Below are positions 16,765-33,621 of a stretch of 43,586 bases of DNA, piece after piece. The notes under the pieces were generated by a model. That model ran no database searches. It saw only the letters and a program-made list of their open reading frames with translations, and was not told the origin of the DNA. Origin of the DNA: Lachnospiraceae bacterium UBA1818 (GTDB lineage Bacteria; Bacillota; Clostridia; Lachnospirales; Lachnospiraceae); NCBI GenBank assembly GCA_904419285.1, contig CAJFQZ010000021.1, forward strand, positions 1 through 43,586. Direction: 5' to 3'. The number at the start of each line of letters is the position of its first letter. The first letter of the stretch is position 1. Both the position numbers and the translations under genes were made by a program.

Positions 16765-16825
16765 TTAAATCCTGCACATTCAATGGCATCTCTCATCAAA
16801 CTCTGCGAGCTTAACAAATGTGGAT

Positions 16826-16953
16826 TTCTTCTCTCATCCAGACTGTACTGTCGGTACCGGAATTCTCTCTCTGAGAGTCACCGGTTCAGCCGCATAAATG
16901 CGGGTCGCGGACTATACCGCCGGTTGGGACTTTCACCCGACCCCGAAGATCCA
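16826..16953 (-). ncRNA. FMN riboswitch (RFN element)
   Basis: The minus strand shows the conserved RFN elements in order: ATCTTCGGGGTCGGGTGAAA, GTCCCAACCGGCGGTATAGT, CCGCGACCCGC, CTGAACCGGTGACTCT, CCGGTACCGACAGTACAGT and GTCTGGATGAGAGAAGA. All are canonical for the FMN aptamer of riboflavin genes. It lies in the ribU leader, upstream of an intrinsic terminator, fitting transcriptional OFF control by FMN. Confidence 0.97.
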
Positions 16954-16971
16954 ATTTCTCTTACAGCTACT

Positions 16972-29107: not shown

Positions 29108-30877
29108 TTATACCCCGGGCAGCTGCCCCCTCTTCTTTTTTCTTTGCGCACCCACGGCGGCGAGATATGTTTCAAACGCAGAAGGCATGGGATATTTTTC
29201 TTCCAGTTCATCCCTCCCGGCAAAGATCACATTATCCTTCATCTCTTTTTCCAGTTCATCTACAAGGATCTCATACCCGGTCATATGCCATTCCACATGA
29301 CTGAAAATATGCTTAGCGCTCTCAAGTTTTTTCACCCGCACCGGTGCAAGGCCGAGACTACGGGCGTAATCAATAGCCTCCTGGCGTTTCAGATGCCCTT
29401 CCACATTCGGGAACTCATACATCCCGGCCAGAAGTCCGGTACTTTTCCTTTTTCTGATCGCCACTGCGCCGCCATCGCAGAACAGAAAGACTGTCCGCTT
29501 CTCGATCCGCCGTTCTTTCGCTTTCTTCTTCACCGGATACTCCATCTGCGTCCCCTCAGCAAAAGACCGGCAGAGATGCCTCACCGGACACTCTGCGCAC
29601 TTCGGCTCCCCGTTCGGAAGGCACACGATCGCTCCAAGTTCGATCAGGCTCTGATTAAAATCTCCTGCCGCGTCCCTGGGGATAACTTCCTCGAGCAGCG
29701 CCTCAATCTTCGTTCGCGTTGACGCCTTTGTAATGTCATCCGGATCCGCCAGAAGCCGTGTCACAACTCGGAACACATTGCCGTCCACCGCCGGTTTGGG
29801 AATATTGTAGACAAATGAGGCGATCGCCCCCGCCGTATAGCTTCCGATCCCTTTCAGAGACCGGATCTCCTCATACCTGTCCGGGAATCTCCCGCCAAAC
29901 TCCTCCATGATCTGGACTGCCGCCGCCTTCAGGTTGCGTGCCCGGTTATAGTACCCCATTCCTTCCCACAGTTTCAGGAGCCGTTCCTCCGGGACTTCCG
30001 CCAGGGCCTTCACGTCCGGAAGCTCCTCCAGAAATCTCTCATAGTACGGTTTGACCGCTTCAACCCTCGTCTGCTGCAGCATGATCTCCGAAATCCACAC
30101 ACGGTAAGCGTTCATCCGCCTGCGCCAAGGCAGGTCTCTCCTGTTTTCCCGGAACCATTCCACAAGCGGCCCCGCCGCCTCCTTCAGCTCCGGGCTTCCG
30201 AGGACTATGTCCACCGGACTGTCGATCTCTATACTGTCCGGGGAAACCGTACAGTCGTATGCCAGAATATGGACTCCCGCAGCGGCAGCACGCCTCAGCG
30301 CCTCAGCAAACGCAGGATGGGTATCCGTGTTAGGCGTAAAATACCTCACATCCTTCATCTGGATCACGAAAAACACATAGGTTTCATATCCCTCCTGTTT
30401 TGCAAGTATCAGTTCTTCCAGATGCTTGACCGCACGCTCGCTGGGCGCATCCGGAAAACGGCAGACGCCGTTTTCCTCCAGCGTCACTCCCTTTACCTCA
30501 ATGAATATCCGCTTTCCCTCCGCTTCCACATAGAGGTCAAAGCGGGAATTGCCATAGGTTGTCTCCGGTCTCACAAGCGTCACATCCCGGAAGAGATGCC
30601 CTCCCCTGATCCATTCCTCGACCAGACGGTTTGGAATCTGGGAGTCCATATTGATCATCCGCTCCCCTTTCTCCACACTGATCAGATCCCATTTCGTCTT
30701 CCTGTCCGGATTTGCGCTTCTCTGTATATAGACAGAAGCGCCCGGGACAAGAAGTTCCGCACAGCGCCCTGTATTTTTCACATGTACAGTCTCCTTCCGG
30801 CCATTCAGCTCAGTGTATGCGATGAACCGGTTGGGCCTCTCAAGGAATACCGCTTTTTCTATCCTCTCATATCTCAT
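29108..30877 (-). CDS. SfsA-MutY fusion: nuclease-like domain plus A/G-specific adenine glycosylase
   Basis: One uninterrupted 589-codon frame holds two complete proteins. Residues 1-228 are SfsA (LERPNRFIAYTELNG, VHVKNTGRCAELLVPGA, RPETTYGNSRFDLYVE, IFIEVKGVTLEENGVCRFPD), a family with a reported DNA/RNA nuclease-like fold. Residues 231-575 are MutY, which removes adenine opposite 8-oxoguanine: catalytic E264 (SEIMLQQTR), D365 in KPAVDGN, GIGSYTAGAIAS, an iron-sulfur loop C419-x7-C427-x2-C430-x5-C436, and a C-terminal Nudix-like domain with FSHVEW for 8-oxoG recognition. Neither half is truncated and the join is short. The fusion may couple excision to end processing, but that is inference. 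Confidence 0.93.
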   Translation of the reverse strand: MRYERIEKAVFLERPNRFIAYTELNGRKETVHVKNTGRCAELLVPGASVYIQRSANPDRKTKWDLISVEKGERMINMDSQIPNRLVEEWIRGGHLFRDVTLVRPETTYGNSRFDLYVEAEGKRIFIEVKGVTLEENGVCRFPDAPSERAVKHLEELILAKQEGYETYVFFVIQMKDVRYFTPNTDTHPAFAEALRRAAAAGVHILAYDCTVSPDSIEIDSPVDIVLGSPELKEAAGPLVEWFRENRRDLPWRRRMNAYRVWISEIMLQQTRVEAVKPYYERFLEELPDVKALAEVPEERLLKLWEGMGYYNRARNLKAAAVQIMEEFGGRFPDRYEEIRSLKGIGSYTAGAIASFVYNIPKPAVDGNVFRVVTRLLADPDDITKASTRTKIEALLEEVIPRDAAGDFNQSLIELGAIVCLPNGEPKCAECPVRHLCRSFAEGTQMEYPVKKKAKERRIEKRTVFLFCDGGAVAIRKRKSTGLLAGMYEFPNVEGHLKRQEAIDYARSLGLAPVRVKKLESAKHIFSHVEWHMTGYEILVDELEKEMKDNVIFAGRDELEEKYPMPSAFETYLAAVGAQRKKKRGQLPGV

Positions 30878-31115: not shown

Positions 31116-31940
31116 CTATAATATCTTTGATAAAAATTCCTTCAGCCTCGGATCCTTCGGATGATCGAAGAATTCCTCCGGCGGCGCCTCCTCTTTGATC
31201 TGGCCGTCGTCCATGAAGATCACACGGGAAGCAACCTCCCTGGCAAATCCCATCTCGTGGGTCACGACCACCATGGTCATGCCGTCCTTCGCCAGTTTTT
31301 TCATCAGGTCAAGCACCTCTCCGACCATCTCCGGATCCAGCGCTGACGTAGGCTCGTCGAACAGGATCACATCCGGATTCATCGCCAGAGACCGGATGAT
31401 CGCAACTCTCTGTTTCTGTCCTCCGGAGAGAGTGGACGGATACGCATCTGCCTTATCGTCCAGGCCGATCCTTTTGAGAAGGTTGAGCGCCTGTTCCTTT
31501 GCCTCCTTCTTGATCTGATCCTTTGTCGTATCGATCGGGATCAGTTCTTCCTTGCTGCTTCTGAACAGGTTCTTGAAACGGGTAACAAAGTTCTTTCTTT
31601 TCGCTTTTCCCAGATCCTTGCAGCGCAGATATGCCGGCGCCATCATAACATTCTGCAGCACGGTCTTGTTGTTGAACAGATTAAAGTGCTGGAACACCAT
31701 TCCCATGTGCCTGCGGTGAAGATTGATATCCACCTTCATATCCGCAATGTCCACGCCGTTGAAAATGATACTGCCGCTGGTGGGGTCTTCCATACAGTTC
31801 AGGCACCGCAGGAATGTACTTTTTCCGGAACCCGAAGGTCCGAGCACCGCGACAATATCACCCTTGTTGATCGTGATATTGATCCCCTTGAGGATCTCAA
31901 GCTGTCCGAAGCTCTTCCTAAGATTAATTACGTCTATCAC
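31116..31940 (-). CDS. Polar amino-acid ABC transporter ATP-binding protein
   Basis: A 274-residue ATPase of the GlnQ/ArtP/HisP class. Walker A is GPSGSGKS (34-41), Q-loop Q84 (VFQHFNLF), signature LSGGQ (171-175), Walker [12 protein letters not shown] (around 192-202) and the switch histidine in [10 protein letters not shown]. It is about 30 residues longer than normal because of a basic insert at about residues 107-146 ([20 protein letters not shown]). That insert lies between the Q-loop and the signature, in the helical subdomain. It overlaps the end of the permease gene by 17 nt and is the last gene of the operon. Confidence 0.92.
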
Positions 31941-32634
31941 TCTTCCTCAGGCTCCTTTCCAAAAGTTTTACCAGCAGGCTGATCACCAGCACCAGTACAA
32001 TGTAGATGACCGCCATGACCAGATACGGAACGATAAAGTCATAGCTGTTGCTGCCTATATAATTGAACGCCATGTAGAGATCCGCCACAGCCACAAAGCT
32101 TACCACCGATGTCTCCTTGACCAGGGTGATGAACTCATTTCCCAGCGTCGGGAGGATATTCTTCACTGCCTGTGGAATCACGATCTTGCACATACTCGCA
32201 CTGAAGCTCAGTCCCACTGCGCGTCCTGCCTCCATCTGCCCCGGATCCACAGACTGAATACCGCTTCGCATGATCTCCGATATGTAGGCTCCACTGTTGA
32301 GGCCGAACACTGCGATGGCAACATTCAGACCGCTTGTCCTCACGCCCAGCAGCGGCAGCAGTACATAATAGCCGACCAGGAGCTGGACGACCATCGGGCT
32401 TCCTCGGAACAGCGCCACATAGAAGCTGCAGAAACCGTTGAGCACTCTCGGAAGCAGTTTATATTTCGGCACCACCCTGACCGTAGCGATCAGCGTTCCG
32501 ATCACAATACCGATGAGCAGGCCGAGCACTGCGATGAGAAGCGTGTTCTGCAGGCCTTCCACCACCCGGACATAACCGTTCTGATCGATAAATATGTCGA
32601 TAAATTTATCTACTCTCTGACTTAAATTACTCAT
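31924..32634 (-). CDS. Polar amino-acid ABC transporter permease
   Basis: A 236-residue permease of the HisM/GlnP family with five helices. The conserved region [24 protein letters not shown] motif is present as [20 protein letters not shown]. The EAA coupling loop for the ATPase reads [31 protein letters not shown] is typical. It follows the binding-protein gene after a 111-bp gap with a long hairpin, and overlaps the ATPase gene. The protein forms the membrane pore, probably as a homodimer because no second permease gene is present. Confidence 0.93.
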
Positions 32635-32745: not shown

Positions 32746-33621
32746 TCACTGCATCTCATTGATGGACTCGGTGATCGCTGCTGCCGGAGCTGCGTCAATG
32801 ATCACATAGTCAATGTTTCCATTGATCATATCCTGAACGGCAAGAGAACCGTTCTTGTATGTCTTGCATGTCGCCGGAAGCCCTTCGAAGCCCATGTCTT
32901 CGCTTCCCTCTACGTAGTAGTTTCCTGTCGTTCCCTGCTGCACGCCGATCGTTGTGGATGAGCTCAGCTTGCCCAGCAGTGCCGCCACGTCATCTGCAGT
33001 CTTGCAGTCGTCAAATGTGGTGTCCGTGCTCGGTACGATCAGTCTCTGGGAAGCCTGATAGTAGGACTCGGAGAATGTAACGAACTCTTCCCTCGCCTCA
33101 CTGACTGTAAGTCCGGCCATGGCGATATCACACTTCTGCTGGCTTACAGACAGGCAGACCGCGTCGAAATCCATGTTCTGGATCACCAGCTCTTTGCCCA
33201 GCTCGTCTGCAAGGAGTGCCGCGATCTCCATATCGATTCCTACATAGGAATCACCTTCCATATACTCAAACGGCTCGAATGCGGCGTTCGTAGCCACAAC
33301 AAGCTGATCCTTTGACTCGTCGAGCGCTGCGGACTCTACCGGCGTCGGGTCGCCGCCGCCGAAATATTTCTCGCAGATCTCATCCAGCGTACCGTCTTCC
33401 TTGATCTTATCAACAAACTCATTCACCTGATCCAGGAGCTCCGGCTGGGACTTATCCACTCCGAATGCGTACTCTTCGTTGGTCAGATCGATATCGATCA
33501 CCTTCGCAGTTACAGCGCCGCTGCCTGAATCGTTATCTTTTCCGCTGCCGCTTCCGCATCCGACGATCATTCCGGCTGTAAGAGCCGCCGTCAGGCAGAC
33601 TGCCAAAAACTTCTTCATCAT
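32746..33621 (-). CDS. Amino-acid-type ABC solute-binding lipoprotein, apparently circularly permuted
   Basis: A 291-residue lipoprotein with a signal peptide and lipobox VGC (C22). Residues 105-291 form the usual SBP_bac_3 core from its first strand (QLVVATNAAFEPFEYMEGDS) through GIDMEIAALLADELGKELVI, LTVSEAREEFVTFSESYY and GVQQGTTG to NGNIDYVIIDAAPAAAI. The normal C-terminal segment, a strand-helix of the type VIDIDLTNEEYAFGVDKSQP, ending in TLDEICEKYFGGG, is missing at the end and instead lies at residues 40-90, between the lipobox and the core. This is the layout of a circular permutation. The gene heads the operon with permease and ATPase. GGAGG precedes tandem ATG codons. Confidence 0.88.
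   Translation of the reverse strand: MMKKFLAVCLTAALTAGMIVGCGSGSGKDNDSGSGAVTAKVIDIDLTNEEYAFGVDKSQPELLDQVNEFVDKIKEDGTLDEICEKYFGGGDPTPVESAALDESKDQLVVATNAAFEPFEYMEGDSYVGIDMEIAALLADELGKELVIQNMDFDAVCLSVSQQKCDIAMAGLTVSEAREEFVTFSESYYQASQRLIVPSTDTTFDDCKTADDVAALLGKLSSSTTIGVQQGTTGNYYVEGSEDMGFEGLPATCKTYKNGSLAVQDMINGNIDYVIIDAAPAAAITESINEMQ

Follow-up and report, generated by a model that had tools for sequence, protein, structure and literature searches.

The window, i.e. the whole stretch of 43,586 nucleotides from Lachnospiraceae bacterium UBA1818 that was analysed, contains on its minus strand the genes for a binding protein, a permease and an ATPase in this order, which together form a complete importer operon (Table 1). 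The permease gene adjoins the binding-protein gene in all 57 operon loci that were read, and the ATPase gene does so in 56, the contig of the remaining locus ending first. The 291-residue binding protein matches the Pfam family SBP_bac_3 (PF00497) with 112.3 bits, compared with a curated cut-off of 26.4, and it does so in two stretches. We are highly confident that this lipoprotein binds the substrate of an otherwise ordinary ABC importer for polar amino acids and that its topology is naturally circularly permuted. The segment labels used here are T for the relocated segment, N for the N-terminal half of lobe 1 together with hinge strand 1, and M for what remains of lobe 2; instead of the canonical order (N-terminal half of lobe 1, lobe 2, C-terminal part of lobe 1, with both termini on lobe 1), the order T-N-M was found.

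Table 1. The permuted binding-protein gene, its segments and the adjoining importer genes (window coordinates).
Feature	Position	Strand	Details and basis
Permuted SBP_bac_3 lipoprotein gene	33621..32746	-	ATG start, 291 aa; segment order T-N-M
Signal peptide and lipobox (..IVGC), residues 1-22	33556..33621	-	Sequence; Cys22 invariant in 49-row alignment
Gly/Ser-rich tether from anchor Cys to first domain strand, residues 23-38	33508..33555	-	Sequence; pLDDT <50 over residues 17-33
Relocated C-terminal segment T, residues 39-89	33355..33507	-	Aligns to AncQR 183-232 and GlnBP 174-223; last lobe-2 strand of the model at 39-42
Join linker GDPTPVESAALDES from old C-terminus to old N-terminus, residues 90-103	33313..33354	-	14 aa
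Segment N, former N-terminal half of lobe 1 and hinge strand 1 (182-190), residues 104-198	33028..33312	-	Alignment, piece profiles, model secondary structure
Segment M, lobe 2 up to last helix 277-290 (new C-terminus), residues 199-291	32749..33027	-	Alignment, piece profiles, model secondary structure
Single permease gene	32634..31924	-	PF00528; HEQRo_perm_3TM over cut-off
ABC ATPase gene, GlnQ/HisP-like	31940..31116	-	GTG start; 17-bp overlap with permease end

The first-pass annotation had claimed a permuted order for the gene at 32746..33621, and this was borne out by inverted alignments and by a rotation scan. The alignment to canonical binders that it had proposed as a check yielded two stretches in swapped order with both references: phmmer against PDB chains paired residues 106-284 with residues 11-175 and residues 39-88 with residues 183-232 of AncQR (4zv1; i-Evalue of the second stretch 3.4e-05), and it paired residues 106-210 with residues 4-108 and residues 40-89 with residues 174-223 of GlnBP (1ggg), the latter match being weak when taken alone (i-Evalue 0.019). 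Among the alignments listed, the relocated tail also pairs with the canonical tail in other solved binders. The placement of the C-terminal type of segment that ends in ICEKYFGG at residues 40-90, directly after the lipobox, was thus correctly read, as was the missing C-terminal segment of the core, which matches residues 11-175 of AncQR only. In a six-frame Pfam search of the genome, SBP_bac_3 positions 97-131 were found upstream of positions 1-98 in one frame. The same search revealed no second copy of the segment near the operon, in agreement with the earlier statement that none lies between the gene and the permease; the genome-wide SBP_bac_3 matches amounted to four stretches, two of which belong to this gene and two to other contigs.

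In the rotation scan, the mature protein was re-cut in steps of four residues and scored globally against eight canonical proteins. The score peaked at 386 when the protein was re-cut at residue 68 (approximately residue 89 of the open reading frame, at the linker), compared with 286 for the unrotated protein and a median of 260 over the rotations. The best of 20 shuffled sequences reached 30 under a coarser scoring (four references, steps of 12), and four of four canonical test proteins peaked at zero rotation; the peak is more than chance. An AlphaFold2 model (pLDDT 85.4, pTM 0.72) has the expected strand-strand-helix-helix arrangement over residues 39-87, comprising the last strand of lobe 2 (about residues 39-46), hinge strand 2 (49-55) and the C-terminal helices of lobe 1 (60-75 and 78-87). 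VIA-align matched residues from about 100 to 291 of the model to the first 170-180 or so residues of ArgBP, AncQR and GlnBP in 44 of the 50 rows shown, and the other six begin at residues 57-60; structure aligners follow the chain order, and segment 39-89 falls mostly outside their matches.

The lobes were assigned by alignment to GlnBP, with domain limits from the literature. On this basis, the cut would be located in the lobe-2 loop between the last helix and the last strand, and both new termini would lie on lobe 2. The old termini, both on lobe 1, are bridged by the 14-residue linker, which connects the former C-terminal helix to the former N-terminal strand. In the predicted chain, the lipid anchor and the tether lead into the last lobe-2 strand and hinge strand 2, followed by the C-terminal helices of lobe 1, the linker, the N-terminal half of lobe 1, hinge strand 1 and finally the remainder of lobe 2; both hinge crossings would be kept, and the membrane anchor would have moved from lobe 1 to lobe 2. 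It had been proposed that the anchor is now joined to the former C-terminal helix, which does not hold, as in the GlnBP alignment the anchor is followed by the Gly/Ser-rich tether and then by the last strand of lobe 2. The related expectation that residues 40-90 represent the missing C-terminal strand and helix of lobe 1 would hold for the lobe-1 helices, but the segment also includes the last lobe-2 strand and hinge strand 2.

The protein would most likely work as a normal Venus-flytrap binder that passes an amino acid to a homodimeric permease, a homodimer being assumed because there is one permease gene. The ligand would be held between the lobes by a conserved arginine and a conserved aspartate, the closed lobes would dock on the permease homodimer, and uptake would be driven by the ATPase, the tether running through lobe 2, not lobe 1. 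Lobe closure, docking, the amino-acid ligand and any benefit of the moved tether are all deduced here. R177 is kept in 94 of 95 and D276 in 95 of 95 rows of the permuted class with the order T-N-M (class I), and their equivalents are found in 24 of 24 canonical rows each; they are the counterparts of R75 and D157 (GlnBP numbering), the carboxylate- and amine-binding residues. Judged by these positions, the ligand cradle of class I is the same as that of the canonical relatives. A search of 11 sources for an RNA regulator that could hint at the substrate gave no Rfam match at the operon; an FMN riboswitch at 16822-16954 of the window (minus strand, 95.8 bits) is unrelated to the importer operon. 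The ATPase (31116-31940, minus strand) has an apparent extra stretch of about 30 residues before residue 140, which corresponds to position 106 of the GlnQ profile, and searches with this ATPase were split into two stretches in the ATPases listed from operons outside class I and remained whole in those of class I operons.

A search for homologues with the same order, likewise proposed in the first-pass annotation, showed that the arrangement recurs. The genome scan yielded 307 relatives from 383 stretches, and the best 80 of the 307 are all T-N-M; the uniform order of the kept loci is partly expected, because the closest relatives were kept. In the protein database, 119 of the 120 matches listed (of 7993) have the order T-N-M, and the one exception, P0089 with 383 residues, seems to be an assembly stutter. 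Named holders of class I proteins include [Ruminococcus] torques ATCC 27756, Coprococcus catus, Mediterraneibacter massiliensis, Faecalicatena contorta and Sporofaciens musculi. The few listed relatives with a name carry only the generic title 'transporter substrate-binding domain-containing protein', which illustrates that annotation can hide such rearrangements. These genome counts are lower bounds, as the scoring covered a limited number of candidates in each genome (8 to 16 in the large searches, up to 8 in those of the phylum). Full-length class I matches (E <1e-95) were found in at least 15 of 150 genomes of the family (one per genus, own included), and at least 18 of 25 genomes of the same genus (own included) carry the permuted order, two of them partially. 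At the level of the order, at least 11 of 196 genomes match at E up to 1e-40, comprising nine strong full-length class I proteins, one protein of a separate group with class I order (class Ib, G266) and one canonical protein (G259, L177), while in the phylum class I was detected in at least 2 of 299 genomes, both of the same family.

The class I gene is under strong purifying selection. Comparison with 12 relatives, after exclusion of pairs with saturated dS (six of 12 for T, three for the linker and three for the core), gave dN/dS values of 0.060 for T, 0.139 for the linker and 0.087 for the core, the relocated segment having the lowest value of the three. It should be noted that low values of this kind show that the gene is functional, not that its permutation is beneficial.

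The class I profile also matched shorter spans within the family in which lobe 2 is followed by T and then by N (M-T-N). These proteins, designated class II, end just after hinge strand 1, at approximately GlnBP residue 95 within lobe 2, which points to a second cut in another lobe-2 loop; both termini would thus lie on lobe 2 in both permuted classes, in contrast to lobe 1 in canonical proteins. A class II profile gave 32 near-full-length matches (E <1e-100) in at least 29 of 150 genera, and the kept locus of each of these 29 genomes was re-read as M-T-N. At least 12 of 196 genomes of the order match this profile at E up to 1e-55, among them ten new M-T-N loci, the M-T-N locus L178 that was already known, and the class Ib gene of G266. 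In the phylum, class II occurs in at least 2 of 299 genomes, one of them in another class. Piece profiles over 179 loci identified 108 frames with the order T-N-M, 46 with M-T-N, 26 with the canonical order N-M-T, one with N-T and one with M-T-N-M-T-N (L115); several loci repeat one gene (the window's own three times), and the distinct rotated proteins number 98 for class I, 35 for class II (two from L115) and 26 for the canonical order. A lipobox was recognized by pattern in 104 of 108, 40 of 46 and 23 of 26 of the T-N-M, M-T-N and canonical frames, respectively. The join linker has a median length of 14 residues over the 108 T-N-M frames, in which the gene of the window is counted three times, and of 17 in class II.

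Class I main and class II share none of the 150 genera, in which they occur in 15 and 29 genomes, respectively (expected overlap 2.9, P 0.033), and because they do not co-occur, it is suggested that they may fill one role. A further class II subfamily (L055, G017) does co-occur with class I. In the three class II loci tested for this (L103, L104 and L107), the binder runs into the permease, yielding proteins of 518-527 residues with PF00528 at the C-terminal end, and further class II matches sit in frames of similar length. One of the three, L104, has an N-terminal lipobox, and none was found by pattern in L103 and L107; in L104, lobe 2 would therefore carry both the lipid anchor and the permease. 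Genome G012 encodes a single-chain importer of 1149 residues (L115:2088-5534, plus strand) that comprises M-T-N-M-T-N (with weak piece scores), a permease and an ATPase. When the class II model was used for structure searches, the top rows were OpuAC, LysR effector domains and MetQ, and the top row of Foldseek was the GlnPQ tandem 6h30; these matches are probably helped by the pseudo-symmetry of the lobes, and hence no claim about family is made.

Both classes probably originated when a canonical gene was duplicated in tandem and in frame and the product was then trimmed at its two outer ends, whereby an SBP-linker-SBP precursor would have been reduced to T-linker-N-M in class I or to M-T-linker-N in class II. 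An intact tandem-duplicate precursor of class I was not found. In G112 (C48:57923-59683, plus strand), two class II genes are adjacent, an arrangement from which a new permutation could start. Among the matches to a class II protein, the 120 listed comprise 59 M-T-N proteins and also 50 M-T-N-M-T, ten N-M-T-N and one T-N-M-T-N protein (e.g. P0124, P0143 and P0197); for most of these hybrids, in which a permuted protein is linked to a canonical one via a shared segment, the listing gives a single contig. They would be missing links if real, but no such hybrid was present among the 182 frames read in genome loci (which include only the M-T-N-M-T-N frame of L115), and we regard them as probable assembly chimeras and not as duplication precursors.

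In the literature searched (top-ranked matches, with few subscription journals), we found no report of a permuted SBP_bac_3 protein. The window protein shares homology, cradle residues, operon type and the nature of a Gram-positive lipoprotein with canonical polar-amino-acid binders such as GlnH, ArgBP and AncQR, and differs from them by the swapped segment order, the location of anchor and C-terminus on lobe 2 and the 14-residue join linker. The glycine-betaine binders of the OpuAC type, with halves swapped relative to ProX ('domain dislocation'), are a putative precedent; a passage search in two open articles did not find the swap mentioned. These binders have 12% identity and belong to a different ligand family; the window protein has no match to PF04069, and it was only with the class II model that OpuAC came up as a structural match.

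Naturally permuted binding proteins are already known, although few cases from transporters were found. The sugar binder TpMglB-2 (Tp0684) of Treponema pallidum has been designated 'Type Ic / Cluster Bc' and is, like the window protein, a naturally permuted, tethered binding lipoprotein of an ABC importer, with relatives in Gram-positive gut bacteria (PMC4990184, available part). According to the same part of that article, TpMglB-2 is a type I (cluster B) protein in which the first three strands of the N-lobe have become C-terminal and a fourth crossover has been added; by contrast, the window protein belongs to the type II amino-acid binders and has its cut in lobe 2, and the alignment predicts that both usual crossovers are kept. 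It is a permuted and tethered binder, and by sequence it belongs to the amino-acid binders of PF00497, not to a type I sugar family; it would thus work like Type Ic / Cluster Bc without being a member. TpMglB-2 was published as one fold rearrangement, and in the portion of the article available the authors could only speculate on tethering (PMC4990184). GlnPQ of Lactococcus lactis has canonical tandem SBP domains that are fused to the permease and not permuted. Its interdomain linker includes the stretch 248-261, and linker length affects transport (PMC8025302, available part); the class I join linker of 14 residues is equal in length to this stretch, and the class II linker of 17 is about as long.

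The permutation is not a one-off: there are several permuted lineages with two cut points, and the window protein is a member of a widespread one. A tree of rotated binding proteins, for which the 98 class I rows had been reduced to 34 and later to 16, recovered class I main as one clade (100/99) and class II main as one clade (96/98). Class Ib (L100 and L176) was nested among canonical proteins (99/86), and four class II rows ('IIb') grouped with the canonical L150 and L156 (94/82). Both units of L115, L116, the canonical protein of L071, the class II protein of L055, L001 and later L179 had been excluded as long branches or members of another subfamily; L115, L116 and L179 are too divergent to be placed, and the T-N-M label given to L116 (410 aa) was discarded as unreliable, its scores being weak. 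In a tree of permease and ATPase from 57 operons including that of the window, class I main stood apart (100/100), Ib grouped with five canonical operons (99/98) and IIb with six (99/99). Class II main did not form one clade in this tree, and the two Ib rows were not mutual nearest neighbours; therefore, these operon genes and the binding proteins do not have one simple shared history. The clearest separate event is that of the L055 subfamily. The second binding protein of L055 is M-T-N, and the genome of the window encodes a canonical protein with which its two halves share 67% and 59% identity. Matches to it at E up to 1e-35 occur in 22 of 150 genera (five full-length, 17 partial). The sequences support at least four separate events, namely class I main, class Ib, class II main and the L055 subfamily, and IIb is probably a fifth.

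Against this stands the explanation that there was one ancient permutation, or one tandem ancestor trimmed in two ways, and that the nested canonical relatives arose by reversion or gene replacement. With the rotated alignment of the binding proteins, AU tests rejected neither a single class I clade (p 0.212) nor a single class II clade (p 0.283), and the similar lengths of the join linkers (medians 14 and 17) would also fit a single origin. The permease and ATPase alignment, however, rejects both unions (p 0.021 and 0.003), a result that exchange of operon genes could also cause. The identity of class Ib reaches 66% with a canonical protein and no more than 43% with class I main, and the class II protein of L055 shares 65% identity with a canonical protein and no more than 33% with class II main. 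Moreover, the 13 loci of its subfamily that were read (12 and L055 itself) comprise six permuted and seven canonical ones, all of which match one canonical protein with 55-85% identity per half. We thus consider a single origin improbable. Far less credible is the proposal that residues 40-90 are an unrelated insert with a chance likeness to an SBP tail and that the core is truncated: single PDB chains match the tail modestly (see the i-Evalues for AncQR and GlnBP), but its pairing with canonical tails in other solved binders, the low dN/dS of the relocated segment and, above all, the inverted phmmer alignment and the rotation scan refute it. The least probable of all is an artefact of assembly or rearrangement, or a decaying gene. 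Many relatives are metagenome bins and chimeric-looking hybrids occur in the protein database; yet T-N-M is also found in named strains and in the one-contig genome G035, which refutes an assembly artefact, the open frames are full-length, and dN/dS values near or below 0.1 in both domain segments argue against decay.

Accepting several real permutations, it is about an even call whether they are neutral, in that surface loops and close termini tolerate them, duplication causes them and the moved anchor is without consequence. The unchanged operon and cradle residues, the expected secondary structure of the model and the ligand binding and conformational change of the permuted TpMglB-2 (PMC4990184, available part) are in line with neutrality. 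However, every permuted class found has its new termini in lobe 2, though the searches used profiles of these very classes (I and II) and permutations at other places may exist unseen, and the strong matches concentrate in one order, each class reaching at least 2 of 299 genomes of the phylum. A more tentative interpretation is that at least four permutations in the Lachnospirales, in two loops, have always brought the anchor (and, in some class II proteins, a fused permease) to lobe 2, that this convergence reflects an importance of the tethered lobe for delivery to the homodimeric permease, and that pseudo-symmetry of the fold eases the swap. Between an advantage of lobe-2 tethering and a tolerated accident, we lean slightly towards the latter. 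The permuted proteins of the L055 subfamily, whose halves are 55-73% identical to the canonical one, form matched natural pairs in which the tethered lobe would be the main difference; therefore, the control of substrate delivery by the anchor and the spread of permutations become directly testable.

Elsewhere in the window, SfsA is fused in frame to a MutY-type glycosylase in an open reading frame of 589 residues (29108-30877, minus strand; SfsA_N, SfsA, HhH-GPD and NUDIX_4). In 12 genomes of other families, no place with both halves was found, seven having one half at a place and two (G150 and G156) matching both halves at different places, and near-full-length matches to the fusion are present in 17 of 19 genomes of the same genus, own included.
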